Assembly: GCA_029916745.1 (NCBI GenBank)
Contig: JARXWK010000003.1
Location: forward strand, 1-64,000
From: Dysgonomonadaceae bacterium PH5-43
Lineage (GTDB): Bacteria; Bacteroidota; Bacteroidia; Bacteroidales; Azobacteroidaceae
Direction: 5' to 3'
DNA length: 64,000 nucleotides
The translations under genes and the position numbers were made by a program. The notes beneath the pieces were generated by a model. The model was not told the DNA's origin, did no database searches, and was given only the letters and a program-made list of their open reading frames with translations. Positions 21,382 through 55,329 of the stretch are shown in pieces. Position 1 is the stretch's first letter; every line of letters begins with the position of its first letter.

Positions 21382-21390
21382 ACATTAAAA

Positions 21391-23880: not shown

Positions 23881-23884
23881 AAAT

Positions 23885-35520: not shown

Positions 35521-38500
35521 ATGACAACAAAATTAAGGAAAGCAAAAGGAATAAGAAAAATATTCCTTTTATGTACTATGTTTTTGTGTTTCTTATCGTT
35601 TACGGTAGAAGACACACAAGCAGCCTGCCAGTGGATAGACAGCAATTTCAGGGTCATCTACAATCCTATGTATGCTCGATTTGAATTTACAATACGGGTA
35701 AAGTATCGTGAAGACAATAGCGGTGGAGCTGACCACCATGCTATATTAACAGAGCGAGACGGCAATAAGCCCAGAATTAGTGTAAGAGTTAGCGGATACA
35801 CAGATTACTCTTCTCTTTTCTTTCTTAATGTTCCAAAAAAGAAAGATGGAGGTAAAGACGATTACGACTGTGGCTATATAGAGCTTACTCGAAAATTACA
35901 AGATGGAGCATTATGGCACGGAACCAATGGGACTTACAAACGTGTATCGGGGACAAGCACAGGCACATACGCTCTTACCCAAAACAAAACAGACGATTTT
36001 AATTATTTCCACACTGTTTATTGGTATCCATCATCAGAGTATGCTGGCAAAAAATTAGAATTTTCTCTAAACGAAGGGAAATGGGATATAAGAAGTAGCC
36101 CCCCTGATGACACAAACTTTAACGACAAATCCGTTACAAGAGAAGCTACTATGGAAGATAAGTTAGCTACTCCCGACATAACATCTATAGACATTCAAAA
36201 GAATGGAAATACCAGAGTAAGGTATCAGTTTAGTTCGCTTACCAATGTATATCCAAGCACTAAATTAGAGCTATTAAGAAAAATAAAAAATGACAATAAA
36301 GAAGCTGTTGTTATTGATACTAAATATCCCGAACACCAAACTTCAAGTTATTTCGAGGGCAAATACATTACAGATAACAAAGAGTATGAGTTCTACTTAA
36401 GATACACTACTATTCCCGACTCTGCAAAATATACCCCAAGTGCGCATAATTATGTATTTATTAAATCATCAGAGTTATTCACTGCCACAAGGTTATCTTC
36501 GATAAAGAGTCTTGAAGTTAAAGCATTAGACAACGCAACTTTAGATATTATATGGACTTACGATAAAAAAGATGACGACGATGATAGTAAGTTTATAATT
36601 TCGGTATACAACTCCTATACAAAAACATGGGTTGATGCAACTAAAGCCACTCAAGGTATTACTGTAAACAACGATATTATCGATTCTTTTACATATCCAA
36701 TACCTGCCGCTGAAACTCAAAAAGGGGTAGTTGATTATACAGTTAGAGTTCATCGTAATTACTTCAATCAGGGTGTAAACTCTAGTTACTTCGAAAGAGA
36801 CCAGAAAGTTGAAATAAATACAAATTATAAAGCAATAGACAATTTTGTTTTTGATGCGGGAGATGGAGGTTCAACTGTATTTAAGTGGGATATTACAAAG
36901 AAAGGTTTATGGAATCCTGATTTATTAGAATATAAACTTGAAGTAACAGGCGACGGAGTTAAACAAACATATACTCCAAGTATAAACGAACAAAGTTGCA
37001 TAGCCGACGGATTAATGTCGTGTGTTGATTTGAAAGCTAAATTAAGCTTAATTATTTCGTCGACTAAAGAAGTTGTTAGTACCGACAGTACATACTTTAG
37101 AGCACCTGATGACAAGCCTAGTAAAATCAGTAATTTTACAGCATCGAAAGGTTATTATCCCGACAAGGTAGAATTAAACTGGACTATACCTTCCGACTCT
37201 TCAAACTTTAGTAGATTTATTATTTCGCGGAAAAACTTAAGCACTAATGTAGTCGACAGTGTTTATCAAACAATTACAGCAGACAAGAGATCTTTTATCG
37301 ACGAAAACATCGAAACAGGTGTTTACTATGGTTATAGAATTGGTGGCTTTTTAGACTGTGGAGATAAAAGCAGTACTCAACCTTTAGCTAAATTAGAGAC
37401 TTTAGGGTTTTCTCAGCCTTATGGTGTAGTATCGGGTAGAATTACATATAATGGCGACCAAGGAGTAAAAGGTGTTGATGTTTTAATTAAAGGAGATGAA
37501 AACGTCCCCAACAGAGGACTTGTTCTTTCATCTAAAGGACAGAAAGCTTCTTATATAAAAATACCTACAGAGGCTTTCAATCCAAAAGAATTTACATTCT
37601 CGGCTTGGATTAGTGCAAGCGAATATCCTACCAAAGGCAATAAGAAAACAATATTAAGAGCTCCTGGCATTATGGAGTTATTTGTTAACTCATCTGGTAA
37701 TTTAGCTATAAAAAAAGACGCTACATTAGCTACAGATCAAACCGATGCGGTAGTAATGGAGCAATTGGCACTACCTCGTCTCGATTTTACTCATTTAGCA
37801 ATTACTGCAAAACACGATAGTTTGTTGTCTGTTTATAATGTATGCATATTTAATATGGGCGAAAAGATATGGGAAGCTTCAACTCCTATTTCTATTCCCG
37901 ATAAGGTTTACTCCGAAAATGTTTTTGTAGGAGCTTTCGATACTAATCGCAATAATGAGTTTGACGGATTTATTGACGAAATAAGATTTCACTCTGTTGC
38001 TTTAGATTCGGAAACAATTCTTGACGAATATGATAGGTTCTTGAATGGTAAAGATGATAAACTGTCGGCTTATTATCGTTGCGATGAGAATACATCTATT
38101 TATCACCTTAATTACATATTCGACATTTCAAGAAAAGAAAGTGTTTACAATAAACGTGACGCATATATTGGAGACGGTGTAAGCTGGTCTTACCAAACTC
38201 CTTCGTCTGATTTATTAACTAACAAAGCTAAAACAGACGAAAATGGTAACTATCTTATGAATACCGTACCATATACAAACGATGGTATATTGTACACGGT
38301 TACTCCTATGTTTAAGACTCACTCTTTCAATCCTAACAATCGTCCGGTATTTGTTAGCCCCGACTCTCGTGTGATAAACAATCTTGACTTTACCGATAAC
38401 TCGTCGTTCCCTGTTTCGGGTAGAATTGTATATGAGAACACAGATATACCAGTAGAAAAAGTTACTTTTTATGTAGACGGACAAATCTGTATGAAAAATA

Positions 38501-40596: not shown

Positions 40597-43500
40597 CAAC
40601 CAGATATATGCTTGGGAAGCTGAATTACGTGCAAACGAAGAAGCTAAGGTTATAGCCAAACACAAGGCTGCTTCGAAAAACTATTCTTTCGACTCTGGTT
40701 CGGGAGGAATAACTTCAAGCCATACAAGCTCCGATAATGTTCAGAATACTGTATCGTTCGATCTTACTATTACTAAAATTAAAAATAGAAATTTAGATGT
40801 AAAAGGTGTCGCAAAGCTAAGAACTGCAGTAATTAAAAAGACTCGTACAGGTAAAGGTACTTTAAGCGGTTTTGTCGACTATAACGAGAAAAAGACCGTC
40901 AGTTATACTCTTAACGATAATAATGTATATAACTACTTCACCGTAGATGTGCACGAAGATCCAGAAGATGGGTTTGGTCCTATATTCATAACAAAGGCGG
41001 GGCAATCATCTTGTCCTTACGAAGGAGCTTCGTACACAAAATATTACGAGAAAGGCACTAAGATTAATGAGGCTACTCAAAAACTATACTCACCAAGCAT
41101 AGAGGCTAACAAACGATTTATTACAGAACAACCAGCAGGCAGAGCAGTTCCTGTTACGTTGTACCTACGCAATAACTCTGAAAGCAAGATGCCTCTATTC
41201 CATAATTTAAGAATGGGGCAAAACTCTAATCCTAATGGAGCTGTTGTACTGTTAGATGGTGCTCCGTTAACCGAAGATGGTTCTCCTCACACTTTCTCTA
41301 TTACAGCTGGAGATATTATGCAAAAGACTATTACTATAGCTCAAGCTAACACAGATGTTTTAGATTATAACGATTTAGAGTTTATCTTATATTCAAGTTG
41401 TGGAAGCGCTATAGGTTACGACTTAGCCGATACTGTTAAAGTTTCTGTTCAGTTTATTCAGAGCTGTAGCGATATAGAATTAAACATAGACAACCGAACC
41501 GTAAACACTGTTTCGGGTGATAGCTTATATGTAGAGTTTTCTAATTATAATTTAGATTACAAAAACTTCTATTCTTTAGAACTACAGTATCAAGGACCTG
41601 GAGATATTGATTGGAGACGCGCTAAAGAGTTTGTTCTTGACGCAGATGATTTAACTGCCAACAACGAACTGCTTAAAGGTGGTAAAACTGCTTTCTATTT
41701 GCCTATGAAAGAATTTTCTGACGGTAATTATCAATTCAGAGCAGCAACATATTGTACTAACGGAAGCGATAAAATTTGTTTTAGTACAGAACCTATCAAT
41801 ATTGTTAAAGATATGACTCCTCCTGTTAGTATGGGTTCTCCTAATCCGAGCGACGGAATACTCACTCCTTCTAAAGAACTTTCTATCTTGTTTAACGAAG
41901 ATATTCAAAAAGATAAGATTACTTACTCAAACTTCGAGATAAAAGGTTTGCTTAATGGATACGAAGTAAACAACAACGTTGCTTTAGATTTCAGTGGTGT
42001 TGGTTCGGCTTACACAGAAATGAACTTAACGGCAAATAACAGTTTTTCTATAGAGTGTTGGTTTAGAAGAACTCCCGGACAAGCTGGTAGCTTATTCTCT
42101 TGGGGGTCACAAGATAGGTATATATCGTTGGGCTTTACTGCCGACAACAAACTTAAAGTTGTTAACGAAGCCGATAGTATATTCTCCGACGATTATAATA
42201 CTGATACCGACTGGCAATATGTTTCTATGACATTCGACAGAGATGATATGTTAGTGTCTGTTTATGTTAACAATGCACAATACAACAAAGCCGTTATAGC
42301 AGAAAAGAAATTCAAAGCTCCTATATCGGGTCGATTATATTTAGGTAAATCAAACTCGGCTCCTTTGTTTAACGGACAAATACGTCAGGCGCATTTCTGG
42401 AATACTAAACGTGTATTAAGCGACACTGGCGATATGAATACTTCAAAAACAGGAAAAGAAAATAATCTTATAGGTTATTGGAGTTTAGATGAAGGTTTGG
42501 GAGATATTGCTTACGATAAGGCTCGTTCTCGACATCTTTATGTAAATACCGACTGGTATATTAATCCTGCGGGTAAGGCTTTCGTATTTAATGGAAGTAA
42601 TTACTTAAAAGTTCCGAGCGAAGTTCACCCTATAGCCGACGATGCCGACTATACTATAGAATTTTGGTTCAAAGGCGATAAAAAAGAACGTGCTACAATA
42701 TTCTCTATCGGTCACGGTATAAACGATTCTTATCCTGATGATAAGATTTCTATTGGTACTAACTTCGACGGTTCGTTGTTCCTACGTAATTCGGGATTAG
42801 ACCGTAACATAGTAAACTTCGACGTGTTAGACGGACAATGGCACCACTTAGCTTTAAGTATGCGTAGAAATGGAAGCGTAAACATATATTTAGACGGAGC
42901 TTATACAAGCCAGCTTAAAGCAAGTCTGTTTACTCGCTTAGCTGCTGCTAATATTTACCTTGGTGCTTGCCACTACACCAACTATTCTCTTGTTGATGTT
43001 ACAACTGAATATTTCACTGGCGAGATTGACGAATTAAGACTTTGGGACGCCGCTTTAACTGCCGAACAGTTAGACTTGAACCGTAATCATAAGCTAAGCG
43101 GAGAAGAATCGGGCTTAATGCTTTACTATCCGTTCGAAACTTATAAATTAGACGAAGGTAACCAACTGCAATTAGAAGCGTCGCTAAACAATCAGGTTGT
43201 TGAATACTCAGATGAAGAAGCTATTGCTTCTACTGAATTATTCTCTAATCACGGACCGGCAATTAAAGATGTGCGTCCGATAGAAGATGTTGCTTTCTCT
43301 ATCACTCCTTCTGATAATAAAGTTATACTTACTATTACCGAACCAATAAAGAGAATAGAAAACTCTATCTTAGAAATTACTTCTAAGAATGTAATGGACG
43401 TAAACGGTAATAGATTGGTATCGCCTGTTAAGTGGACTGCTTATATTAATATGAATCGTTTACAATGGAGCGAAGATGTTATTAGTGTAGAAAAAACACT

Positions 43501-45274
43501 TTATGAACCCAAAAACATTAAAGTGAATATTTCGAACACAAGCGGTATGAATGAGTATTACACAATAGACAATCTTCCGGTTTGGTTAAGCTGCGGCGAA
43601 ACTACCGGAATATTAGGACCTCAAGAATCTAAAGAAATATCTTTAGTTGTTAATGATGCTCTACCTATAGGCTCTTACGAAAGCTCTATTACATTGGTTG
43701 GTAATAACGATTATCAAGAAACATTGTTAATCAATCTTAGTGTATTGGGCGAAAAACCAGATTGGGACGTTAATCCTAACGACTACCCTACTTCTATGAC
43801 TGTTACGGCTCAACTTAAAATAAAAAACATTTATCAAGAAGACGAAAATGATATTATAGCCGCATTTGTTAATGGAGAATGTAGAGGTATTGCATCTCCT
43901 AAATACATTAAAGCTCTAAACTCATACTATATCCTTATGGATATTTATGGAGGCGATAGTTCTCAGAATAATATTGCTAACGATTATTCTCAAGAAATAA
44001 CCTTCCAAGTATGGGACGCAAGCACCGGACATACTTATGTAGATGTAACGTCAAATACTAAGATTGTTTACGAAGCTCTTACGTTTAAGGGTTCGTTAAT
44101 ATCCCCAGTTATTCTTAATGCTCGCAACAGTATTGAGCAAAACATAGGATTAAACAAAGGTTGGTCTTGGATTTCATTTAATGTAGAATCCAATAATATA
44201 TTCGATCAGGTATTAACGCAAATAGCTCCTTATGGTGAAATTATTAAAGATTCTAAATCTTATGTTCAATCTCCAACTTGGACTGGTGGATTAGACACAA
44301 TTACGAATAACACTATGTACAGAGTTAAAACTAAAGAAGCGTCAAACTTAAAGGTAATCGGAATACCTGTTGAACCTGCCGATATTTCATTAGCATTAGT
44401 TAAAGACTGGAACTGGATACCTTATCTGCCTTCTATTGCACTACCGGTTAATATGGCTTTATCTGGAATAGAAGCTAAGACAGGAGACCAAATTCGTTCT
44501 CACACTAATTATTCTTTGTATATCGAAGGTATTGGTTGGTTAGGTAGTCTTACCTATATGATGCCCGGACAAGGTTATTTATATTATAATACAGTAGCGA
44601 AAAACACTTTAGTTTATCCATCTATCATTAACGAAGAACTAAGAAGTTTGGTAGACCTACGTAACGAACAAGCGTATTCGCCACATTGGATTGTCGACTA
44701 TCGAGGTTTCCAAACAAATATGACGGTTACAGCTTCGCTTTCTATCAACGACAAACTGATAGAAAATAACAACTACGAAGTTGGTGTATTTGTTGGAACA
44801 GAATGTAGAGGTACTGCCTTGTTGCAATACGAAGAAGCTATAGATAAATATCTTCTTTACTTAATGGCATTTGGTACAACCGGAGAAAAAATGAGTTTCA
44901 GACTGTATGACCACGAATTAGAGAAAGAAATAGAAATAAAAGATTTATCTTTCACGTTCCATTCTGATTTAATTCTTGGTAATCCGGGAACTCCTTATCC
45001 TTTAGCACTTCAAACTCCAGACTACAACTCTATTGAAGACATTAATGCTACATTGTATGTTTATCCTAATCCTGTAAAAGACTATTTATACATTATAAAT
45101 AGAGGTCAACTAATCGACAGATATGAGATTACAGACATTACGGGTAAAGTAGTTATGAAAGACGATGCGGTAGTTTCAAATATGATTAATGTAACAACAC
45201 TACCCGAAGGTGTTTACTTCGTAAATCTGTTGGTTAACAACAAATCGCAAATGTTTAAGGTGATAAAAGAATAA
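40547..45274 (+). CDS. Giant T9SS surface protein, C-terminal part (two LamG domains, type A sorting domain)
   Basis: The continuation in another frame, joined to the first part at the (CA)7 run. The ATG at 40547 lies inside the upstream reading frame and has no promoter, so independent translation is unlikely. The region includes an Ig-like segment (PPVSMGSPNPSDGILTPSKELSILFNEDIQ), two LamG domains (about 41980-42430 and 42575-43090, each ending GQIRQAHFW or GEIDELRLWDAA), and a repeated GWSWISFNVES/DWNWIPYLPS module. The T9SS sorting domain (45040-45271) reads LYVYPNPVKDYLYI, YEITDITGKVV and LPEGVYFVNL. The whole is likely a surface adhesin or glycan-binding protein. Confidence 0.85.
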   Translation: MMLTPHTHTEDTISWHNNQIYAWEAELRANEEAKVIAKHKAASKNYSFDSGSGGITSSHTSSDNVQNTVSFDLTITKIKNRNLDVKGVAKLRTAVIKKTRTGKGTLSGFVDYNEKKTVSYTLNDNNVYNYFTVDVHEDPEDGFGPIFITKAGQSSCPYEGASYTKYYEKGTKINEATQKLYSPSIEANKRFITEQPAGRAVPVTLYLRNNSESKMPLFHNLRMGQNSNPNGAVVLLDGAPLTEDGSPHTFSITAGDIMQKTITIAQANTDVLDYNDLEFILYSSCGSAIGYDLADTVKVSVQFIQSCSDIELNIDNRTVNTVSGDSLYVEFSNYNLDYKNFYSLELQYQGPGDIDWRRAKEFVLDADDLTANNELLKGGKTAFYLPMKEFSDGNYQFRAATYCTNGSDKICFSTEPINIVKDMTPPVSMGSPNPSDGILTPSKELSILFNEDIQKDKITYSNFEIKGLLNGYEVNNNVALDFSGVGSAYTEMNLTANNSFSIECWFRRTPGQAGSLFSWGSQDRYISLGFTADNKLKVVNEADSIFSDDYNTDTDWQYVSMTFDRDDMLVSVYVNNAQYNKAVIAEKKFKAPISGRLYLGKSNSAPLFNGQIRQAHFWNTKRVLSDTGDMNTSKTGKENNLIGYWSLDEGLGDIAYDKARSRHLYVNTDWYINPAGKAFVFNGSNYLKVPSEVHPIADDADYTIEFWFKGDKKERATIFSIGHGINDSYPDDKISIGTNFDGSLFLRNSGLDRNIVNFDVLDGQWHHLALSMRRNGSVNIYLDGAYTSQLKASLFTRLAAANIYLGACHYTNYSLVDVTTEYFTGEIDELRLWDAALTAEQLDLNRNHKLSGEESGLMLYYPFETYKLDEGNQLQLEASLNNQVVEYSDEEAIASTELFSNHGPAIKDVRPIEDVAFSITPSDNKVILTITEPIKRIENSILEITSKNVMDVNGNRLVSPVKWTAYINMNRLQWSEDVISVEKTLYEPKNIKVNISNTSGMNEYYTIDNLPVWLSCGETTGILGPQESKEISLVVNDALPIGSYESSITLVGNNDYQETLLINLSVLGEKPDWDVNPNDYPTSMTVTAQLKIKNIYQEDENDIIAAFVNGECRGIASPKYIKALNSYYILMDIYGGDSSQNNIANDYSQEITFQVWDASTGHTYVDVTSNTKIVYEALTFKGSLISPVILNARNSIEQNIGLNKGWSWISFNVESNNIFDQVLTQIAPYGEIIKDSKSYVQSPTWTGGLDTITNNTMYRVKTKEASNLKVIGIPVEPADISLALVKDWNWIPYLPSIALPVNMALSGIEAKTGDQIRSHTNYSLYIEGIGWLGSLTYMMPGQGYLYYNTVAKNTLVYPSIINEELRSLVDLRNEQAYSPHWIVDYRGFQTNMTVTASLSINDKLIENNNYEVGVFVGTECRGTALLQYEEAIDKYLLYLMAFGTTGEKMSFRLYDHELEKEIEIKDLSFTFHSDLILGNPGTPYPLALQTPDYNSIEDINATLYVYPNPVKDYLYIINRGQLIDRYEITDITGKVVMKDDAVVSNMINVTTLPEGVYFVNLLVNNKSQMFKVIKE
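40560..40573 (+). repeat. (CA)7 dinucleotide run at the frame break
   Basis: Seven CA units followed by GAGG. With seven copies the first frame runs into a stop at 40594-40596. Adding one CA (eight) or removing two (five) makes the reading continuous: Ser-Thr-His-Thr-His-Thr-Glu-Asp-Thr-Ile-Ser-Trp. Confidence 0.9.
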
Positions 45275-45294
45275 AAACTTTTATATAGTAAAAG

Positions 45295-45340
45295 AGAGAG
45301 GGTTTACTTCAAAATGGAGTAAATCCTCTCTTAGTTTTTA
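45295..45340 (+). terminator. Intrinsic terminator of the giant surface protein gene
   Basis: A 16-bp stem with two G-T pairs (45295-45310 with 45316-45331), loop AAAAT, then TAGTTTTTA. Confidence 0.8.
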
Positions 45341-45661: not shown

Positions 45662-46567
45662 ATGAATGTTTCGCATATTTTGGTATCAATATTATACATC
45701 ATAGTTTATTTGTTGGCATTACTACCTTTGAGTGTTTTGTATGCCTTTTCAAGTTTTCTTTATTTAATTGTATATTATATAGTTAGATATAGGAGAAAAG
45801 TTGTACGAAAAAACTTAATAAACTCTTATCCCGAAAAGTCGACAAAAGAAATAATATCATTAGAGAAAAGATTTTATCTGCATTTTTGCGATTTATTTGT
45901 CGAAACATTTAAGTTGACAAACATCTCCCCTACTACTATGCTTAAGCATTTCGAGTTTAAAAATATTCAGGTGCTTGACGAACTTTACGAGAATAATCAA
46001 AGTATGGTGCTATATCTCGGTCATTACGGTAATTGGGAGTGGACTACTTTCGCTCGTGCGGCACAACCAAAAGAGCATCATCACGAATATAAATCTTACT
46101 CGGTATATCACCCATTAAACAGCGTAGCTTTTGACGAATTTATGCTCAAACTTCGTTCTAAATCGGGCAGCGTGCTTATTCCTCAGAAAAAAGTATTACG
46201 AACTATATTAGAACTAAAAAGAAGCAACACTCCTGCTTTTTTCTGTTTTATTGCAGATCAGAATCCTAAAAAAGGAAGTGAAGCTTTTTGGATGGAGTGG
46301 CTTAATCAGACTACAGCTCCTATTGTTGGTCCCGAAAAAATTGCACGACAAACGGGATACACTGCCGTATATCTTGATATTCAGAAAACAAAAAGAGGTC
46401 ATTATACTGGCGAATTTATTATTATGAGTGAAGATGTTGCTTCTTTACCCGAAAATGAACTCTCCAAACAATATATGAGACTTATGGAAGAAACCATTAA
46501 TCGCGACCCGGCATACTGGCTTTGGTCTCACAGACGATGGAAACGACAACCTAAAAAAGAAGTTTAA
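45662..46567 (+). CDS. LpxL/HtrB-like lysophospholipid acyltransferase
   Basis: 301 residues. There is an N-terminal membrane helix pair (about 5-42), then the acyltransferase domain with LGHYGNWEW (the HX4D/E-type catalytic box, His-X4-Glu here) and FCFIADQNPKKGSEAFWMEWLNQTTAPIVGPEKIARQTG. Such enzymes add a late acyl chain to lipid A, or to other lipids in Bacteroidetes. It lies 5 bases before the first Stealth gene, so it may be part of the same transcription unit. Confidence 0.87.
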   Translation: MNVSHILVSILYIIVYLLALLPLSVLYAFSSFLYLIVYYIVRYRRKVVRKNLINSYPEKSTKEIISLEKRFYLHFCDLFVETFKLTNISPTTMLKHFEFKNIQVLDELYENNQSMVLYLGHYGNWEWTTFARAAQPKEHHHEYKSYSVYHPLNSVAFDEFMLKLRSKSGSVLIPQKKVLRTILELKRSNTPAFFCFIADQNPKKGSEAFWMEWLNQTTAPIVGPEKIARQTGYTAVYLDIQKTKRGHYTGEFIIMSEDVASLPENELSKQYMRLMEETINRDPAYWLWSHRRWKRQPKKEV

Positions 46568-46572
46568 TAAAT

Positions 46573-47565
46573 ATGGAAATAGACTTTGTAGTTACTTGGG
46601 TAGATATGGACGACCCAAAGTGGAAAGCTGAATTTAATAAATACGCTGGAAAAATAGATAACTCTCATAATTCATTTTCTGAGGCTCGCTTTAGAGACTA
46701 CGGATTTCTTAAATATTGGTTTAGAGGTGTAGAAAAATTTGCACCTTGGGTGCGTAAGATACACTTCGTTACCTCTGGTCAAAAACCTGAATGGTTAGAC
46801 GAAACCAATCCTAAGATTAATTTGGTTAATCACTCCGACTATATACCTAAAGAGTTTCTGCCGTGTTTCAATTCTAGTTTATTAGAAATATACTTACATA
46901 AAATACCTGGCTTATCTGAACATTTTGTTTATTTTAATGATGATTTTTTCATAATAAACAATCTTTCTAAAGAACGTTTTTTTAAGAATGGAATTCCTTG
47001 TGATATTGCTGCTTTTAGATACAACTCAGGAATAGGACTTTGGAGTAAGTGCTTACTTAATAACATTAGGCTTATCAACAAATATTTTGATAAAAAACAA
47101 ATCATTAAACGAGATTATGATAAATGGTTTACCCCCATTTATGAAGGAGGAGACAAACTGAATTATTTATTCAAATTTTATCCTAAATTTTTAACACTAC
47201 GTACACCTCACAATGCACAACCATATATTAAAAGTACATACAATGAGGTATGGGCTACCTGCGAAAAAGAATTAACAGAGATGTCCTCTCACAAGTTTCG
47301 CAGTGCGGACGATTATACTCAAGAATTATTTCGCACCTGGCAAATATGCAAAGGTAATTTTCACCCTTACAACACATATAAAGACACAAAAATGTTTCCT
47401 CTTGTACTGAGGTCAAACAACGCTATAAAGGCTATAAGAAATCAGACTTATAAATTGATTTGTTTAAACGACAATGTACATATACGCAATTACACTCAGG
47501 TAATGAAAGATATTCAGGCTGCTTTTGAAAGTATATTACCAGAAAAATCAAGTTTTGAAAAATGA
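46573..47565 (+). CDS. Stealth family sugar-phosphate transferase
   Basis: 330 residues. Stealth proteins transfer hexose-1-phosphate to build phosphodiester-linked glycans. The conserved regions are in order: CR1 (IDFVVTWVDMDDPKWKAEF), CR2 (RFRDYGFLKYWFRGVEKFAPWVRKIHFVTSGQKPEWL, then NSSLLEIYLHKIPGLSEHFVYFNDDFF), CR3 (TPHNAQPYIKSTYNEVW) and CR4 (LICLNDN). A second Stealth protein is encoded at 52897-53835 on the other strand. It overlaps the next gene by 4 bases. Confidence 0.9.
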   Translation: MEIDFVVTWVDMDDPKWKAEFNKYAGKIDNSHNSFSEARFRDYGFLKYWFRGVEKFAPWVRKIHFVTSGQKPEWLDETNPKINLVNHSDYIPKEFLPCFNSSLLEIYLHKIPGLSEHFVYFNDDFFIINNLSKERFFKNGIPCDIAAFRYNSGIGLWSKCLLNNIRLINKYFDKKQIIKRDYDKWFTPIYEGGDKLNYLFKFYPKFLTLRTPHNAQPYIKSTYNEVWATCEKELTEMSSHKFRSADDYTQELFRTWQICKGNFHPYNTYKDTKMFPLVLRSNNAIKAIRNQTYKLICLNDNVHIRNYTQVMKDIQAAFESILPEKSSFEK

Positions 47566-48443
47566 ATAAGAAATTAGCAGAAATAATAGCTGGACTTATC
47601 CCTCACAAATTAACTCGCAACCAGTGGAGAGGCAAACTTCGTTTTGGACTTATTGAATCTATTCAATTAAAAAAATTCTTACGTAAGAATAAAGATGTTC
47701 CAACTAAATACTATATTGCCGTTTGTGCTATTGCTAAAAACGAAGGACCTTACTTTAAGGAATGGATAGATTGGCACCAAAAATTAGGCATAGATAAATT
47801 TTTTATTTATGACAATGAAAGTTCTGATAATACAAAAGAGATTTTAACTCCTTATATAGAATCAGGATTAATAGAATACACTTACTGGGAAGGAGAAAAA
47901 GAGCAACTAGCAACTTACGATGACTGTTTAAGAAAACACAGATTAGATTGTAGCTGGATAGCAATGATTGATCTTGATGAATTTATTGTACCTTCTACTC
48001 ATAAAACTATTTCTGAAGTTTTATTTGGATTAGAACAATTTTCAGTAGTAGAAATCAATTGGCTTATATACGGAAGTGGTGGCGCAAAAAACAAAGAATT
48101 AGGCAACGTAATGGATAGATTCAAAAAACATTCTTTACCTAATCATAAACTCAATAGATATATAAAGAGTATTGTTAATCCTCGCAAAGTTTACTCTTTT
48201 ATTGGCAGCCACGAAGTGGCACGTATATCGGGAAAAGCCGCAGACCCCCTGGGTAACCCTATCAAAAAATGTTTTAGAGACAGAGAGCCACAACAAGATA
48301 TTCTTCGCATTAATCATTACGCCGTCAAATCTCACGAAGAATTTTTGGAGAAACAAGAAAAAGGTAGAGCTAGCGGACGTACAAGAAAAATTAGCATGGA
48401 GTATTTTCATAGATTCGACTTAAACGATATAGAAGAACAATAA
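47562..48443 (+). CDS. Glycosyltransferase, GT92/Glyco_tranf_2_4-like
   Basis: 293 residues with YYIAVCAIAKNEGPYFKEWIDWHQKLGIDKFFIYDNESSDNT and the acidic motif WIAMIDLDEFIVP. The C-terminal part contains RINHYAVKSHEEFLEKQEKGRA, seen in related enzymes of capsule loci. Donor and acceptor are unknown. It overlaps the Stealth gene by 4 bases and precedes the first LicD gene by 29 bases. Confidence 0.85.
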   Translation: MNKKLAEIIAGLIPHKLTRNQWRGKLRFGLIESIQLKKFLRKNKDVPTKYYIAVCAIAKNEGPYFKEWIDWHQKLGIDKFFIYDNESSDNTKEILTPYIESGLIEYTYWEGEKEQLATYDDCLRKHRLDCSWIAMIDLDEFIVPSTHKTISEVLFGLEQFSVVEINWLIYGSGGAKNKELGNVMDRFKKHSLPNHKLNRYIKSIVNPRKVYSFIGSHEVARISGKAADPLGNPIKKCFRDREPQQDILRINHYAVKSHEEFLEKQEKGRASGRTRKISMEYFHRFDLNDIEEQ

Positions 48444-48472
48444 TATGATAACTTCTGATAAAAAACACAAAA

Positions 48473-49339
48473 ATGAGTAAGAACATAAAAAAGATAGAAG
48501 AAATAGAGCAATCAACAATAGAGGCAACTCAGTCGTTGATTTTAGATATATTGAAAGAATATCAAAAGATATGTGAAGAACATAATCTAAAATTTTACCT
48601 TACAGCAGGATCGTTATTAGGAGCTGTAAGACATAAAGGCTTTATCCCTTGGGACGACGATATAGACGTAGGTATGCCAAGAAAGGACTATGAAATATTT
48701 ATTAAAAATGCACACAAATGGCTTAAAGCACCTTTAGAATTAGATTGTCCAGAATACAATGATAAATATGTATACTTTTTCGCTAAAGTTGTAAACTACA
48801 ATACTACCATAGAACAAAGATATTGCGTTAGCGGTGCATATATAGACATATTTCCTTTAGATGGTGTTCCTGACAGTAAGCTAAGGAGGAGATTGCATCA
48901 GTTAAGATTTAAAGCTGCAAAAGAATTATTTTATATCTGTAGACGAAATCCATTTAGACACGGAAAATCATTTGGAGGATATATTAACTTATTAATCCAA
49001 AAAATAATATCACCAAAGTTAGCATATAAGATTTATAAATCAGTCATCACAAGCTATGATTTCGAAAAAAGTAATTCTTTTTCTGACCACAGTAATGAAA
49101 TAACTAATATGATGAGTAAAGATGTTTTAGGAAAAGAAAAAATAAAAATTCAATTTGAAGACTTTGAAAGCTATGGTATGAAAGATAATGATACGTATCT
49201 TACTTGCTACTTCGGAGATTATATGACTCCTCCACCCGTAGAAAAAAGAAGACCTCATCATTGTGCGTATCGTAATTTAGAATTACCTTACAGAGAATAT
49301 CTAAAACTAAAAAAAACAAGTAATATATGCAAGCTCTAA
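48473..49339 (+). CDS. LicD family phosphotransferase
   Basis: 288 residues. LicD proteins transfer a phosphoalcohol (phosphocholine in the founding member) from a CDP-linked donor to a sugar. The diagnostic block is LTAGSLLGAVRHKGFIPWDDDIDVGMPRKDYE (about 44-75), with the DDDID metal site, and YIDIFPLDGVP follows. It overlaps the fusion enzyme gene by 13 bases, a strong hint that the fusion makes its donor. No choline uptake or choline kinase gene is seen, so the transferred group may not be choline. Confidence 0.9.
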   Translation: MSKNIKKIEEIEQSTIEATQSLILDILKEYQKICEEHNLKFYLTAGSLLGAVRHKGFIPWDDDIDVGMPRKDYEIFIKNAHKWLKAPLELDCPEYNDKYVYFFAKVVNYNTTIEQRYCVSGAYIDIFPLDGVPDSKLRRRLHQLRFKAAKELFYICRRNPFRHGKSFGGYINLLIQKIISPKLAYKIYKSVITSYDFEKSNSFSDHSNEITNMMSKDVLGKEKIKIQFEDFESYGMKDNDTYLTCYFGDYMTPPPVEKRRPHHCAYRNLELPYREYLKLKKTSNICKL

Positions 49340-51135
49340 TATTAGCAGCGGGAATGGGTAAAAGGTTGGGCGAACTAACCAACAATAATACCAAGTGTAT
49401 GGTTAAGGTTAATAACGTAACCTTAATTGAGCGTGTATTAAAACAAATTGAAACACGAAACTTTGAACAGATAGTTATCGTAACTGGATACCAAGAAGAC
49501 AATCTGAAAGAATATATCAAAACTTTGAATATTTCTACTCCTATTGTATATGTATCTAATCCTATTTACGATACTACTAACAATATATATTCGTTATATC
49601 TTGCTCGCGATTATATGTCGAAGAACGATACAATATTATTTGAATCTGATTTGATATTTGAAGATGCTGTATTAGATAAGATTATGAACAATCCCTATCC
49701 CAACTTAGCCTTAGTGTCTAAATTTGAGAATTGGATGGACGGCACTTCCGTTGTTTTAGATAAAGATGATAAAATCAATAGATTTATCTCTGAGAAAGAT
49801 TTTGTACACGAAGATTCTTCAGAGTATTATAAAACAGTAAATATATACAAGTTTAGTAAAGAGTTTTCTAACACACACTACATACCTTTCTTAGAAGCTT
49901 ATTTGAAAGCCTTAGGAAATAACGAATATTACGAACAGGTATTAAAAGTGATTGCTTATTTAGACAAACCTGAACTTAAAGCTCTTAGGCTGGAAGGTGA
50001 AAAGTGGTACGAGATAGATGATGTTCAAGATTTAGACATAGCTGAATCTGTGTTTGCTTGCAAAGAAGAAAGACTCAGTAAACTTGAAAAAAGATATGGA
50101 GGTTATTGGAGATACGAATCAATTATTGACTTCTGTTATTTAGTAAATCCTTACTTCCCCGACTATAAATTATCATCAGAGCTTAAAGCCAATTTTGATT
50201 CCTTACTCAGGGAATATCCATCAGGAATGTCTGTTAACTCACTCCTTGCCGCTAAAATGTTTAATGTCAAACAAAAATATTCTTTAATCGGAAATGGAGC
50301 TGCTGAATTAATAAAAATATTACTTGAAACATTAGACGGTAAGTTTGGAATTGTATTTCCCACTTTTGAAGAATATCCCAATAGGCTAAAAGAAGAACAG
50401 TTAGAAATATACAATACTTCTAATGAAAATTTTGCATACACAGCAAAGTCTATCATAAATTATTTTGACAAAAAATCAATAGACACTTTTTTGTTGATTA
50501 ATCCAGATAATCCTTCTGGTAATTTTATTCCATACAATGACCTATTATTATTATGCAAGTGGAGTAAACAAAAACAAATACGTTTAATAGTAGATGAATC
50601 TTTTGTAGATTTTTCAGACGAATCGATAAACAATAGTTTAATTGACAATTCTATATTAGAAGAATATAGCAACCTTATTGTAATAAAAAGCATATCGAAA
50701 TCTTACGGAGTTCCAGGACTTAGATTAGGTGTTATGTTTTGCTCTGACGAAATTTTAATTACTAGTGTAAAAAAAGCACTCTCCATTTGGAACATAAATT
50801 CTTTTGCTGAATTTTTCATGCAAATAATTGGTAAATATAATAAGCGTTATCAAAAAGGATGTCAAGCAATAGCTAAAGAAAGATGTCGTTTTCATAAAGA
50901 ACTAGAAAAAATACCTTTTTTACGTCCTATTCCATCTCAAGCCAATTATATACTCTGTGAAGTGTTAAATCCATACACTTCAAAATTTTTAGCTATTGAG
51001 CTTTTGAGTAAAGCGGATATACTTATTAAAGATTGTAGTGGCAAAAAGGCTTTCAACAATAAGGAATACATAAGACTGGCAGTAAGAAACGAACAAGACA
51101 ACAATAAATTATTAGAAACTTTAAGGAAGTTTTAA
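49327..51135 (+). CDS. Fusion of nucleotidyltransferase (LicC/PntC-like) and PLP-dependent class I/II aminotransferase-fold enzyme
   Basis: 602 residues in two domains. Residues 1 to about 240 are a nucleotidyltransferase: LILAAGMGKRLGELTNNNTKCMVKVNNVTLIERVL, FESDLIFEDAVL and WYEIDDVQDLDIAE. Residues about 255-602 are a HisC/CobD-like PLP enzyme with LINPDNPSGN, LIVDESFVDF and the PLP lysine Lys458 in KSISKSYGVPGLRLGV. HisC-fold relatives include phosphoamino-acid decarboxylases that yield phosphoethanolamine or aminopropanol phosphate. One reading is that the second domain makes an amino-alcohol phosphate and the first activates it as a CDP derivative for LicD. That is inference; an aminotransferase is equally compatible. 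Confidence 0.85.
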   Translation: MQALILAAGMGKRLGELTNNNTKCMVKVNNVTLIERVLKQIETRNFEQIVIVTGYQEDNLKEYIKTLNISTPIVYVSNPIYDTTNNIYSLYLARDYMSKNDTILFESDLIFEDAVLDKIMNNPYPNLALVSKFENWMDGTSVVLDKDDKINRFISEKDFVHEDSSEYYKTVNIYKFSKEFSNTHYIPFLEAYLKALGNNEYYEQVLKVIAYLDKPELKALRLEGEKWYEIDDVQDLDIAESVFACKEERLSKLEKRYGGYWRYESIIDFCYLVNPYFPDYKLSSELKANFDSLLREYPSGMSVNSLLAAKMFNVKQKYSLIGNGAAELIKILLETLDGKFGIVFPTFEEYPNRLKEEQLEIYNTSNENFAYTAKSIINYFDKKSIDTFLLINPDNPSGNFIPYNDLLLLCKWSKQKQIRLIVDESFVDFSDESINNSLIDNSILEEYSNLIVIKSISKSYGVPGLRLGVMFCSDEILITSVKKALSIWNINSFAEFFMQIIGKYNKRYQKGCQAIAKERCRFHKELEKIPFLRPIPSQANYILCEVLNPYTSKFLAIELLSKADILIKDCSGKKAFNNKEYIRLAVRNEQDNNKLLETLRKF

Positions 51136-51136
51136 T

Positions 51137-52090
51137 ATGAAAATTTTCAGTTTTGAAGAAATAAAAAAATTAAACATTCACCCTAATGAGTGTATGTTAT
51201 GGGTGGAAGAAGCATTTAGACAAAAGCATTTAGTTAATTTGCCAAATAAAAAAAGTATTACATTCAATAATGGTTCTTGTTTTTTCAATACTATGCCATG
51301 TCTTTTTCCTCCTTTAAATAAATTTGGAGTTAAAGAAGTTTCTAGATATCCAAATAGAAATTCATCTATTTCAGGAGAAATTCTTTTATACAATTTAATT
51401 AATGGAGACTTGCTTTGTCTTATGGACGCAAATTGGATAACTTCAATGAGAACTGGTGCTGTCGCTGCTTTGTCTATAAAACATCTAAGAAGTACAAATG
51501 CAAAAATATTTTCATTCCTTGGTCTAGGAAACACAGCAAGAGCAACTATGTTATGTTTACTTGAAAACGAACCCGAACATAATTTTTTAGTAAGACTGCT
51601 TAAACACAAAGATCAAGCAGAACAATTCATCGAAAGATTTAAAGATTATAAAAATTGTTCATTCGAAATAGTTTCAACAAAAAAAGAATTAATTCAAAAT
51701 GCAGATGTAATTGTTTCGGCTGTTACTATTGCAAATGATTTGATTGGAGAAGATAGTTGGTTTAAAGAAGGCGTATTAGTGGTTCCTATTCACACAAGAG
51801 GCTTTCAAAATTGTGATTTATTTTTTGACAAAGTATATGCCGATGATACAGATCATGTTGTTGAATTTAAATACTTTAATAAATTCAAAAAATTTGATGA
51901 GTTTGCTAATGTACTTATAGATAAACATAAAGGACGATTAAATGATAAAGAACGAATACTTATTTACAATATAGGCTTAGCAATGTTTGATATTTATTTC
52001 GCTTCTCAAATATATGATCGTCTTGAAATACAAAATAAAAATAAACATAAAATACAATTAAGAAATAGCTTATCTCAGTTTTGGGTATAA
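51137..52090 (+). CDS. Ornithine cyclodeaminase/mu-crystallin family protein
   Basis: 317 residues. The NAD(P)-binding loop is FSFLGLGNTARATMLCLL, and the family block reads LMDANWITSMRTGAVAALSIKHL. Family members are ornithine cyclodeaminases, imine reductases or SbnB-like amino-acid dehydrogenases. It starts one base after the fusion gene, so a shared pathway making an amino-acid-like substituent or precursor is likely. The substrate is unknown. Confidence 0.87.
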   Translation: MKIFSFEEIKKLNIHPNECMLWVEEAFRQKHLVNLPNKKSITFNNGSCFFNTMPCLFPPLNKFGVKEVSRYPNRNSSISGEILLYNLINGDLLCLMDANWITSMRTGAVAALSIKHLRSTNAKIFSFLGLGNTARATMLCLLENEPEHNFLVRLLKHKDQAEQFIERFKDYKNCSFEIVSTKKELIQNADVIVSAVTIANDLIGEDSWFKEGVLVVPIHTRGFQNCDLFFDKVYADDTDHVVEFKYFNKFKKFDEFANVLIDKHKGRLNDKERILIYNIGLAMFDIYFASQIYDRLEIQNKNKHKIQLRNSLSQFWV

Positions 52091-52104
52091 TAATAAATAA
52101 TGAT

Positions 52105-52896
52105 ATGATGGTATTAACAATAAAAGAAATACAAGCTCTTGAGACAGAAATGCTCAAAGAAGTTATCGATATTTGTAATAACAACGAGATAGAATATTAT
52201 CTTGCATATGGAAGCACATTAGGAGCAATTAGACACGGGGGAACTATTCCTTGGGACGATGATGTTGACATTGTTATTCCTTATAATCAACTAAATAAAT
52301 TCATTTCAATAACTAGACAAAAGCTCAGTAACAAATTCTTTGTAGATTATTATGATATCAATAAATACTATACTCTTACATTTCCAAGAATAGGTCTAAA
52401 AGGATATTCTACATTATATCTACATGTTGATGTATTCTTTTTCTTAGGTCTTCCTGACGAAAGAAAAAAACAATTAAAAATAATGAAGACTTTGGATCGT
52501 CTAAAAAAACACAATACTACAAAAACAATAACTACAAAATATAATAAAAAAAAGGAGAGTTTATTTAGACTATCTATTCGTGCTTTTGCTAAATTATTAT
52601 ACACCCCATATACATTAAATAAAATAAGAAAACAAATTGATGATATGTGTACTAAATATCCTATTGAAACAGCAAATTTTGTAGGCGTTCATAATACAGC
52701 ATGGAGAAAAGCTCCAACGCCTAAAGAATTTTATGGAAAAGGTGTAATAAAAAACTACGAAGGATTTGAAGTCAAAATACCCGAACAATATGATGCTTAT
52801 CTTCGTCATTTTTACAATGACTATATGCAACTCCCTCCTGAACAAGAGCGTAATAATATCAATAATTTGTATACTATTGATAAAATAGAGTTTTAG
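52105..52896 (+). CDS. LicD family phosphotransferase (second copy)
   Basis: 263 residues from the ATG at 52105 (52108 is also possible); the longer frame from 52081 starts at a TTG inside the previous gene. The LicD core is YYLAYGSTLGAIRHGGTIPWDDDVDIVIPYNQL. It is clearly different from the first LicD, so the two probably place the group on different sugars or transfer different groups. The stop codon directly abuts the end of the convergent Stealth gene. Confidence 0.9.
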   Translation: MMVLTIKEIQALETEMLKEVIDICNNNEIEYYLAYGSTLGAIRHGGTIPWDDDVDIVIPYNQLNKFISITRQKLSNKFFVDYYDINKYYTLTFPRIGLKGYSTLYLHVDVFFFLGLPDERKKQLKIMKTLDRLKKHNTTKTITTKYNKKKESLFRLSIRAFAKLLYTPYTLNKIRKQIDDMCTKYPIETANFVGVHNTAWRKAPTPKEFYGKGVIKNYEGFEVKIPEQYDAYLRHFYNDYMQLPPEQERNNINNLYTIDKIEF

Positions 52897-53835
52897 TTAT
52901 TTTTCAAATTTAATCTTTTCAGGATATATATACTCTAAAATAGGACGTATTTGCTCTCTGTCGCTATCTTTAACTCTTTGACTATCATTCACACAAATAA
53001 ATTTTGGCTTATAACGTCTAAGCCTCGGGATAATAGCTTTGTGTCGATGTAAGGATATTCTCATAGATTCGTTTCTTCCCACATATTTTAATTCTCCATG
53101 TTGTATCGCTAATACATAATATGATATAGCTGAGCGATGGAAATCTCCTATGGTCCTAACTTTATTTTGGTAAGATTTTTCCACTTCTGTTTTAAATATA
53201 TTTTCAATAGCTTCTTTGTAGTCAGACTTTACAAAAGAATCAATTCCATGATGCGGTATTCCTGAAAAAACCTTACCATATCGCTTTTCCACCAAAGATA
53301 CAGAATTAACAATAAGCGATTTATAATACCTTAATCCTCCAGTTAATAAGCGTTTAAATTTATATCGTAATTTAATAAATGGAGTTCTTTTTAATCTGAC
53401 TATAGGAAATCCTTCTTTTGTGAAAAAATCTTCTTGACACATGGGGCTATACAACAACATATCATCATTAGCATATATAAAATGTTCTGAAAGATTCGGT
53501 ATTCTATAAATAAAGTATTCTATAACGCTTGAATTAAAGCACGGAAGACTCTCTGTAGGCATTATATCCTTATGATCTATAATTTTAACTTTAGAATTTG
53601 TAGTATCTAACCATTCTGGAATTTGATCGTCTGTAACTATAAATATGTTTCTAATCCAAGGTGCATATTTTTCTATTGAACGTAAGCTATATTTTAACTC
53701 ATCATTGTTTGTATAACGTCCTTTACCCGTAGTATCAGAGTTCTCTTCATTTTTTCCATTTATGTATTTATTTCGTTTCTTTATCCATTTAGGGTCATCT
53801 CCATTTACCCAAAGATACACTAAATCTATATCCAT
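52897..53835 (-). CDS. Stealth family sugar-phosphate transferase (second copy, opposite strand)
   Basis: 312 residues with CR1 (IDLVYLWVNGDDPKWIKKRNKYI), CR2 (GRYTNNDELKYSLRSIEKYAPWIRNIFIVTDDQIPEWLDT, ending SEHFIYANDDMLLYSPM), CR3 (GIPHHGIDSFVKSDYKEAIENIF) and CR4 (PKFICVNDSQRV). It differs from the first Stealth protein. Convergent with the LicD operon with no gap, and driven by its own promoter divergent from ugd. Confidence 0.9.
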   Translation of the reverse strand: MDIDLVYLWVNGDDPKWIKKRNKYINGKNEENSDTTGKGRYTNNDELKYSLRSIEKYAPWIRNIFIVTDDQIPEWLDTTNSKVKIIDHKDIMPTESLPCFNSSVIEYFIYRIPNLSEHFIYANDDMLLYSPMCQEDFFTKEGFPIVRLKRTPFIKLRYKFKRLLTGGLRYYKSLIVNSVSLVEKRYGKVFSGIPHHGIDSFVKSDYKEAIENIFKTEVEKSYQNKVRTIGDFHRSAISYYVLAIQHGELKYVGRNESMRISLHRHKAIIPRLRRYKPKFICVNDSQRVKDSDREQIRPILEYIYPEKIKFEK

Positions 53836-54021: not shown

Positions 54022-55329
54022 ATGAATATAGCGGTTGTGGGCACAGGATATGTGGGTTTAGTTACTGGCACTTGCTTTGCCGAAGTTGGTGTTAATGTAA
54101 CTTGTGTTGATGTAGATAAATGTAAGATAGAAAACTTAAAGCAAGGAATTGTACCTATCTACGAACCCGGATTAGAAAAACTTGTTAAACGTAACTATGA
54201 GGCCGAACGTTTAACGTTTACTACAGACCTAACTTCTTGCTTAGACGACGTTAAAGTTATTTTCTCTGCTGTGGGAACTCCTCCAGATGAAGATGGCAGT
54301 GCCGACTTACGATATGTTTTAGAAGTAGCTCGCACTATCGGACAGAATATAAATAAATATATATTGGTTGTTACTAAGAGTACAGTTCCTGTTGGGACTG
54401 CCGAAAAAGTAAAACAAACTATTCAAGAAGAATTAGATAAAAGAGGCGTTGACATTCCTTTTGATGTGGCTTCTAATCCTGAATTTCTAAAAGAAGGTAC
54501 GGCTGTAAAAGACTTTATGAGCCCCGATAGAATTGTAGTTGGCGTTGAAAGCGAACGTGCTAAAGTTTTAATGGATAAACTATACAAACCTTTTACACTA
54601 AATAACTACAGAACAATATTTACAGATATACGTTCTGCCGAAATGATTAAATATGCTGCTAATGCTATGTTGGCTACAAGAATCTCTTTTATGAACGACA
54701 TTGCAAACCTTTGTCAATTAGTGGGAGCAGATGTAAATATGGTTCGCAGAGGAATAGGCGCAGACTCTCGTATCGGAAATAAATTCTTATACCCTGGTTG
54801 TGGTTATGGAGGCAGTTGTTTTCCTAAAGATGTTAAGGCTTTAATAAAAACAGCATCTAAATACGATTACGATATGCAAGTATTAAAAGCTGTTGAAAGT
54901 GTAAATGAAAAACAAAAAACAATACTATTTGATAAACTATCGGTAATATATAAAGGAGAATTAAAAGGAAAAACCATAGCCTTATGGGGATTAGCTTTCA
55001 AACCCGACACCGACGATATGCGCGAAGCTCCTTCTTTAGTTATTATCGATTTATTATTAAAAGCTGGTTGCGAAATAAAAGTATACGACCCTATTGCAAT
55101 GGAAGAATGCAAACGCAGAATAGGCGATAAAGTAATATATACAAAAAATATGTATGAGGCTGCTTTAGATGCTGATGCCATATTACTTTTAACCGAATGG
55201 AAAGAATTTCGCTTACCAAGTTGGAAGGTTTTGAAAAAGACAATGAACAACACAGTTGTAGTAGACGGACGAAATATTTACGACAGAGAAGAAATGTTAT
55301 CGCAAGGATTTGTTTATGATTGCATTTAG
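54022..55329 (+). CDS. ugd: UDP-glucose 6-dehydrogenase
   Basis: 435 residues. It oxidises UDP-glucose to UDP-glucuronate for acidic surface polysaccharides. Features are the NAD-binding MNIAVVGTGYVGLVTGTCFAEVG, the catalytic-site KYAANAMLATRISFMNDIANL, the nucleophile Cys266 in GCGYGGSCFPKDVKAL, and the C-terminal UDP-binding KTIALWGLAFKPDTDDMREAPS. It likely supplies one or both glycan loci. It is a single gene with its own promoter. Confidence 0.95.
   Translation: MNIAVVGTGYVGLVTGTCFAEVGVNVTCVDVDKCKIENLKQGIVPIYEPGLEKLVKRNYEAERLTFTTDLTSCLDDVKVIFSAVGTPPDEDGSADLRYVLEVARTIGQNINKYILVVTKSTVPVGTAEKVKQTIQEELDKRGVDIPFDVASNPEFLKEGTAVKDFMSPDRIVVGVESERAKVLMDKLYKPFTLNNYRTIFTDIRSAEMIKYAANAMLATRISFMNDIANLCQLVGADVNMVRRGIGADSRIGNKFLYPGCGYGGSCFPKDVKALIKTASKYDYDMQVLKAVESVNEKQKTILFDKLSVIYKGELKGKTIALWGLAFKPDTDDMREAPSLVIIDLLLKAGCEIKVYDPIAMEECKRRIGDKVIYTKNMYEAALDADAILLLTEWKEFRLPSWKVLKKTMNNTVVVDGRNIYDREEMLSQGFVYDCI

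Follow-up and report, generated by a model that had tools for sequence, protein, structure and literature searches.

We examined a 64,000-nucleotide window (positions 1 to 64,000, forward strand, of contig JARXWK010000003.1, assembly GCA_029916745.1) from Dysgonomonadaceae bacterium PH5-43 (genome 2.54 Mb, 46 contigs, 99.97% complete), and within it a cassette in which two LicD transferases are packed around a fused nucleotidyltransferase and pyridoxal 5'-phosphate (PLP) enzyme, hereafter the fusion, and a gene of the ornithine cyclodeaminase (OCD) family. A first-pass annotation had listed these genes together with two Stealth proteins and a GT92-like enzyme. All were found at the positions given below, each with its family above the Pfam cut-off, while an LpxL-like acyltransferase inside the same range (45662-46567) had been left out of that list. 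The tight packing described there also stands, as LicD 1 and the fusion overlap by 13 bases and a single base separates the fusion from the OCD gene. In window coordinates the cassette reads:

45662..46567, plus strand: LpxL/HtrB-like acyltransferase (PF03279, 96 bits versus a cut-off of 22.3)
46573..47565, plus strand: Stealth protein (Stealth CR1-CR4, all four above cut-off)
47562..48443, plus strand: GT92-like glycosyltransferase (PF01697, 101 bits versus a cut-off of 23)
48473..49339, plus strand: LicD phosphotransferase 1 (PF04991, 138 bits versus a cut-off of 22.6)
49327..51135, plus strand: the fusion, 602 amino acids, with a LicC/PntC-type cytidylyltransferase in residues 1-245 and a CobD/SMUL_1544-like PLP domain in residues ~256-602
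51137..52090, plus strand: OCD/mu-crystallin-family enzyme (PF02423, 106 bits versus a cut-off of 24)
52105..52896, plus strand: LicD phosphotransferase 2 (PF04991, 115 bits; an alternative TTG start at 52081 overlaps the OCD gene)
52897..53835, minus strand: second Stealth protein (CR1 and CR2 above cut-off, CR3 and CR4 not listed)

Evaluating the fusion first, we found that its PLP domain, a class I/II enzyme (Aminotran_1_2), matched SMUL_1544 (6oux) best by sequence in the PDB (E 5.9e-41), followed by 3ftb and CobD (1lc5), with bit scores of 143.9 for SMUL_1544 versus 96.9 for CobD. The AlphaFold model of the fusion (predicted local distance difference test, pLDDT, 90.4) gave fold matches for this domain of Z 36.5 to SMUL_1544, 36.0 to CobD and at most 35.6 to HisC-type entries, where Z differences below 1 count as ties. 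SMUL_1544 reportedly decarboxylates O-phospho-L-serine to phosphoethanolamine, and a SerC gene, a source of O-phosphoserine, is present in the genome (452.5 bits versus a cut-off of 443.6); our literature search found no paper on phosphoserine decarboxylase. Across the whole length, the best Foldseek matches were the PntC-AEPT fusion entries 6pd2 and 6pd1, although their template modelling (TM) scores reach only 0.35-0.39, which presumably reflects a different arrangement of the two domains. That two-part layout, along with the HisC models that match the fusion too, would suit a PLP domain acting as a phospho-aldehyde transaminase, like AEPT in the PntC fusion, with no decarboxylase involved. 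AEPT, however, is a class V enzyme, whereas the PLP domain here is class I/II and lies nearest to two decarboxylases, and we consider a transaminase improbable.

For the cytidylyltransferase half, the reference is PntC, which makes CMP-2-aminoethylphosphonate. According to the available part of PMC6697681, its E104 and E196 are positioned for hydrogen bonds to the primary amine, the phosphocholine enzyme LicC carrying Asp there, and substitution of R15, K25 or K153 by alanine cuts activity to less than 10%. The fusion's counterparts of E104 and E196 are E106 and E203 (E203 was matched to PntC E196 and LicC D192 by motif; the HMMER alignment is one column off there, and the alignment to LicC is one column off at E106 too), and with Glu at both amine positions the domain seems suited to a primary amine of small size. 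We assessed conservation in relatives drawn from a pattern scan of a species-genome collection, which returned 438 stretches encoding a fusion relative, and kept the best 80 by likeness to the window's fusion, among them that of Parabacteroides gordonii DSM 23371 (L038). Across these and the window, R13, K23, E106 and E203 were identical in 81/81, as were D108, E229 and D231, and so were N395, D423, K458, R466 and R583 of the PLP site. We consider it quite likely that the fusion makes cytidine diphosphate (CDP)-ethanolamine: its PLP domain would decarboxylate O-phospho-L-serine to phosphoethanolamine, which the cytidylyltransferase domain would then convert to CDP-ethanolamine.

Fusion relatives and their parts were also seen in other settings. 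Among 463 plasmid records matching the fusion, 12 cover at least 80% of it, and five records were inspected. On a Rahnella sikkimica plasmid (L122), a fusion of 33.5% identity has a CDP-alcohol phosphatidyltransferase and HAD enzymes as neighbours, in what may be a small-molecule cluster. Two further loci (L154, L155) hold stand-alone CobD-like genes (32-34% identity) near genes that by eye are HAD-type and glutamine-synthetase-like. In Inconstantimicrobium porci (L055:2144-3187) and in a Fusobacterium vincentii record (L121:8820-9866), the fusion has a gene of the DUF1015 family (PF06245) behind it. DUF1015 might be linked to free serine kinases and so to O-phosphoserine supply, but our literature search found no paper joining it with serine kinase.

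The OCD gene clears the PF02423 cut-off but falls under every NCBIfam cut-off shown, namely those for the ornithine cyclodeaminase-family protein (PRK08618, 101 versus 417 bits), alanine dehydrogenase (92 versus 409) and SbnB (78 versus 327). A genuine ornithine cyclodeaminase or alanine dehydrogenase was set aside on these scores, and the gene product is probably not an ornithine enzyme. Its model (pLDDT 87.6; 6t3e at TMq 0.84) resembles pyrroline-2-carboxylate reductase, archaeal alanine dehydrogenase, mu-crystallin and SbnB, which reduce or oxidise a C=N bond beside a carboxylate. We aligned 27 members, comprising 22 of the 23 OCD loci found among the 80 relatives (one with two copies; L094 or L040 omitted), the window and three other genomes, with PF02423 confirmed in 27/27 rows. 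This alignment revealed K66, R70 and R105 to be invariant and K38 almost so, with K38 at the position of an arginine in 6t3e and R70 at that of a leucine. The first-pass annotation had assigned this enzyme no role. We predict that it probably N-carboxyalkylates the ethanolamine nitrogen in an opine-type reductive condensation. A search of 395 genomes of the phylum at E 1e-40 matched only the window's genome. One relative (L080:1785-3785) carries two OCD genes in tandem behind a single fusion.

To evaluate what stands beside the fusion in relatives, we clustered the neighbours in the 80 loci, built profiles from those clusters and then checked the assignments by Pfam. An OCD gene was present in 23 loci, immediately after the fusion in 21 of them and ahead of it in the other two. 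An octopine dehydrogenase relative was present in 37 loci, and no locus had both (Fisher p 2e-8, kinship ignored). PF02317 was confirmed in 36/37 octopine dehydrogenase assignments (the remaining one most likely being L086, which has the N-terminal part only) and PF04991 in 56/56 LicD assignments; L035 has its octopine dehydrogenase on the opposite strand. A representative from L100 scored 119 bits to PF02317 (cut-off 30), and its nearest PDB entry was octopine dehydrogenase 3c7a, then carboxyethylnorvaline dehydrogenase 1bg6. The His, Arg and Asp columns matching the octopine dehydrogenase active site were invariant in 33 rows. The window's genome yielded no octopine dehydrogenase homologue at E 1e-15, a PF02317 search there having had no control match.

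The two families have repeatedly replaced one another at this slot. On a quick tree of the fusion, counting OCD and octopine dehydrogenase alone gave 10 changes between them, with L081 in its right frame, while setting each label against all other rows ('none' included) gave 14 and 12 changes, with 12 required by supported branches in either case, on another quick tree where L081 is a wrong-frame 'none' row with a very long branch. Two pairs of loci show the exchange cleanly. In the first, L046 (OCD) versus L067 (octopine dehydrogenase, on a contig that begins at the fusion), identity over the remaining six genes compared is 93-98% (95% for the fusion, 98% each for the flippase-like gene and LicD, and 93, 98 and 97% for three further genes). 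A second exchange, L053 versus L093, lies among a LicD at 65%, a Stealth-like gene at 76%, the next gene at 64%, the fusion at 83% and five downstream genes at 96.5-99.8%. In L096 (11838-14603) the octopine dehydrogenase and LicD share one 922-amino-acid reading frame. The simplest reading of such repeated replacement, with fusion and LicD as constant neighbours, is that both families run the same type of reaction on the same substrate.

Related loci bear on which amine that substrate would be. In L126 (genome G229) an OCD gene with 49% identity to that of the window shares one base with the end of a PntC-AEPT gene (904 bits to 6pd1) that follows a phosphoenolpyruvate (PEP) mutase (TIGR02320, 391 versus 320) and a phosphonopyruvate decarboxylase (Ppd; TIGR03297, 525 versus 312.5). 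Given this placement behind a PEP mutase/PntC set, the amine there is almost certainly 2-aminoethylphosphonate, the analogue of phosphoethanolamine, or its CMP form. One further OCD match turned up among the 20 genomes of the G229 family; it has an internal stop, and its contig breaks off at this gene. Nine genomes of the order (Bacteroidales) carry adjoining but non-fused nucleotidyltransferase and CobD-like genes. In eight (L145-L152) the next gene is a 208-218-amino-acid PF01066 CDP-alcohol phosphatidyltransferase (8/8 tested), and the ninth contig stops there. These eight look like a bacterial CDP-ethanolamine lipid route that begins with phosphoserine, and the phosphatidyltransferase behind the non-fused pairs fits a CDP-amino-alcohol as the common product. 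Related S-adenosylmethionine methyltransferases occupy the slot in Gloeothece (L125) and a Coprococcus metagenome-assembled genome (L099), in agreement with such an amine. The loci suggest a tailoring slot on a common CDP-ethanolamine core that is filled by OCD, by octopine dehydrogenase or, in these two relatives, by a methyltransferase. A plasmid of Bradyrhizobium sp. 187 (L124) groups a PEP mutase, a cytidylyltransferase, a CDP-alcohol phosphatidyltransferase and a CobD/HisC-like gene, a possible phosphonolipid set.

Genome-wide co-occurrence was evaluated across 295 genomes of the order, with the comparison across all of them as the control for LicD linkage. The fusion matched at E 1e-30 in 26 and was full length in 11 (one copy split by a stop), the 15 genomes with partial or non-fused matches being counted as fusion-free. 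LicD was present in 10/11 genomes with the fusion versus 31/284 without (p 9e-9, kinship ignored), and lay within 10 kb of the fusion in 7/11. An OCD or octopine dehydrogenase homologue (at least 38% identity) was present in 8/11 fusion genomes, adjacent in six and on a different contig in two, versus 2/284 others (p 6e-12, kinship ignored); seven genomes with weaker matches fall outside this count (OCD at 29% identity in one, octopine dehydrogenase at 27-29% in six). The two fusion-free genomes with OCD are the PntC case above and a 3.9-kb contig of OCD, LicD, a glycosyltransferase-like gene and LicD. Taken with the 23/80 loci that hold OCD, these counts bear out the conserved linkage of fusion, OCD and LicD on which the first-pass annotation had staked its reading. 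A near-complete copy of the cassette exists in an uncultured Bacteroidales (L085: acyltransferase, Stealth, LicD, fusion, OCD, Stealth), differing from the window in that GT92 is missing and there is one LicD only. A gene similar to the acyltransferase is present in this locus and in L082.

We also searched the window's genome for genes of other decoration pathways. No choline kinase (PF01633) was found, where the same search matched 5/14 control genomes, and no BCCT choline transporter (PF02028), where 4/14 controls matched; the search did not extend to a LicB-type (DMT) transporter. A kinase/transporter pair elsewhere in the genome, looked for by these two models, thus did not appear. A phosphocholine decoration was set aside because no choline kinase was found. 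No PEP mutase was found either, apart from one sub-cut-off match in a gene that reads by eye as PanB, and a phosphonate decoration was likewise set aside. LicD and LicC-type domains are what a classical phosphocholine locus, with choline provided by other genes, would also show, but with neither PF01633 nor PF02028 found and Glu instead of Asp at both amine positions we rate that explanation as very improbable. In-house manufacture of the amino-alcohol phosphate, as first proposed, is judged likely.

Bringing these observations together, we propose a route in which CDP-ethanolamine supplied by the fusion is tailored and then transferred. The OCD enzyme would join the ethanolamine nitrogen to a 2-oxo acid, most likely pyruvate, and reduce the imine with NAD(P)H to yield an N-(1-carboxyethyl)ethanolamine group, and could do so on CDP-ethanolamine or ahead of activation. 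A weak hint that N-alkylation follows activation comes from the two natural fusions (nucleotidyltransferase with CobD-like, octopine dehydrogenase with LicD) and from the small size of the amine pocket. LicD would then move N-(1-carboxyethyl)ethanolamine phosphate to a sugar of the glycan, whose backbone would come from the Stealth and GT92 enzymes; only two LicD genes were found in the whole genome, both in the cassette. Stealth proteins are sugar-1-phosphate transferases associated with phosphodiester-linked backbones, and their presence suggests that this backbone may be phosphodiester-linked. A LicD-family enzyme uses CDP-ethanolamine in vitro, according to the available part of PMC11982090. 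We infer all substrates and products, the order of activation and N-alkylation, the oxo acid and the acceptor from what was directly observed, namely gene content, predicted folds, conserved residues, linkage and gene swaps. To the whole route, that is, self-sufficient CDP-ethanolamine supply, opine-type tailoring and LicD transfer, we assign a probability of roughly 60%, and we regard it as an even bet that the transferred group is exactly N-(1-carboxyethyl)ethanolamine phosphate.

Such a group has been described from enterobacterial polysaccharides. N-[(R)-1-carboxyethyl]ethanolamine phosphate (R-Cet-EtnP) is reportedly a component of the Proteus mirabilis O-polysaccharide of serotype O14. 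In the part of PMC9630907 that was available, R-Cet-EtnP is named as a polysaccharide component, both in the glossary and in the legend to a figure that draws structures of Klebsiella pneumoniae capsule and of the O-polysaccharide of P. mirabilis, and the first-pass view that the decoration matches none described no longer holds. The available part of PMC5560731, on Proteus clusters, places O14 among O antigens with structures free of rare monosaccharides, and in it we found no mention of ethanolamine, licD, cytidyl or carboxyethyl. Our literature search found no paper assigning genes to R-Cet-EtnP.

Several observations weigh against this route. At the level of the fusion, the sequence stays below the CobD equivalog cut-off (TIGR01140, 170 versus 290.55 bits) and the HisC cut-off too, the cytidylyltransferase scores LicC (49.8 bits) about as well as PntC (49.3), and the tie in Z between SMUL_1544 and CobD leaves threonine phosphate as a possible substrate. 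With O-phospho-L-threonine as the PLP substrate, the transferred group would be based on (R)-1-amino-2-propanol phosphate, and TIGR01140 is indeed the best NCBIfam model for the fusion, with CobD no more than 0.5 Z from SMUL_1544. The best sequence match, however, is SMUL_1544, which is reportedly specific for O-phosphoserine; OCD is also paired with an aminoethyl system; and SerC can make phosphoserine (a threonine kinase was not searched for). We regard the phosphothreonine explanation as unlikely.

At the level of the slot, 20/80 loci have neither OCD nor octopine dehydrogenase, and only four of these (L049, L052, L066, L081) have less than 1.7 kb behind the fusion, so most of the 20 truly go without either enzyme there. 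Likewise, 3/11 fusion genomes of the order have neither at the thresholds used, and the PntC-OCD pairing was observed once. The fusion without a reductase, and a LicD-family enzyme able to use CDP-ethanolamine as it is, are what one would expect if fusion and LicD simply added plain phosphoethanolamine, with the product of OCD or octopine dehydrogenase unrelated, for example an amino acid elsewhere on the glycan. On that explanation, though, one would have to account for a slot that adjoins the fusion and in which two reductase families are exchanged while the neighbours stay near-unchanged, for the octopine dehydrogenase-LicD fusion, and for the OCD gene behind an aminoethylphosphonate set, and we think it unlikely, if slightly less so than phosphothreonine.

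At the level of transfer, 6/56 LicD proteins near a fusion also match IspD/NTP_transf_3, that is, have their own cytidylyltransferase domain, and LicD near the fusion may thus sometimes use another CDP-alcohol. By length these are probably L044:4334-5926, L048:8422-9987, L052:8244-9992, L059:8409-9938, L066:8283-9938 and L077:3127-4740, two of which loci have an octopine dehydrogenase. Genome G042 pairs the fusion and an octopine dehydrogenase with a CDP-alcohol phosphatidyltransferase and no LicD match.

If the proposed route to N-(1-carboxyethyl)ethanolamine phosphate is right, it would provide a gene set for an orphan surface-glycan substituent and would explain the odd 'ornithine cyclodeaminase' seen in glycan loci. 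It would also imply a zwitterionic phospho-tag made without host choline in gut and rumen Bacteroidales, some Bacillota and Fusobacteriota, and a single gene would make some of the glycan chemistry predictable in many carriers. More speculatively, the slot might be a chirality switch. The 1-carboxyethyl centre is commonly (R) in products of PF02317 octopine dehydrogenases and (S) in those of OCD-fold enzymes, such that an OCD/octopine dehydrogenase swap in an otherwise unchanged locus would exchange the (R) and (S) forms of N-(1-carboxyethyl)ethanolamine phosphate without altering the glycan that bears it. We hold this to be on balance unlikely. It would amount to a mirror-image antigenic switch to which LicD, flippase and polymerase could be blind.

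The cassette is flanked by the following features:

45294..45332, plus strand: terminator-like hairpin of 18 pairs from a consensus scan, lying after the giant gene upstream and ahead of the cassette
54022..55329, plus strand: UDP-glucose 6-dehydrogenase-like gene beside the cassette (TIGR03026, 475 bits versus 189.8)

The hairpin is a consensus match only, in a region where the scan gave 6 sites versus 3.2 expected. The dehydrogenase-like gene, which scores 556 bits to the TuaD model (under its cut-off of 700), is possibly a source of uronic acid. Further upstream, 35521-45274 holds two very long open reading frames (1691 and 1575 amino acids) in different frames with a 50-base overlap, which may be a single secreted surface protein split by a natural or sequencing frameshift. 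By eye, a run of phosphate-binding/transport, PhoU, response-regulator and sensor-kinase genes lies about 20 kb upstream of the cassette (20347-27001), and a transposase-like reading frame (826-1989, minus strand) sits within an upstream glycan gene cluster.

Set against known systems, the cassette shares LicD with the lic pathway (LicA/LicB/LicC/LicD) and has a LicC-like domain for a predicted CTP activation, with Glu where LicC has Asp at both amine positions, but it comes without a choline kinase or BCCT transporter found in the genome, and its alcohol phosphate is predicted to derive from an amino acid phosphate and then to be N-carboxyalkylated. With PntC-AEPT of Treponema denticola (6pd1/6pd2; PMC6697681) it shares the cytidylyltransferase-PLP fusion, the two amine-site Glu residues and a LicD/surface glycan context, and in L126 the same OCD family stands behind such a fusion. 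It differs in that a phosphate ester, not a phosphonate, is predicted (no PEP mutase was found) and in that the PLP part is CobD-like, not a class V AEPT. Because choline kinase and PEP mutase were both searched for and not found, we describe the cassette as lic/Pnt-like but file it under neither.

Its individual enzymes likewise sit beside known families. The PLP domain has the fold, PLP lysine (K458) and arginines of SMUL_1544 and CobD (6oux, 1lkc), but is fused to a cytidylyltransferase, lies in glycan loci and stays below the CobD equivalog cut-off. With octopine/opine dehydrogenases (PF02317; 3c7a, 1bg6) the window's OCD enzyme shares the predicted reductive condensation of an amine with a 2-oxo acid and the slot that they fill in 37/80 loci, but it belongs to PF02423. 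Its fold is that of SbnB and other OCD-fold imine-handling enzymes (4m54, 6t3e, 1omo), among which SbnB binds an N-carboxyalkyl amino acid, to go by the title of PDB entry 4m54; unlike them it scores below the equivalog cut-offs and has K38 for the arginine of 6t3e and R70 for its leucine. At the level of chemistry, the closest likeness is R-Cet-EtnP, as named in the available part of PMC9630907, which corresponds to the group that we predict for this cassette.

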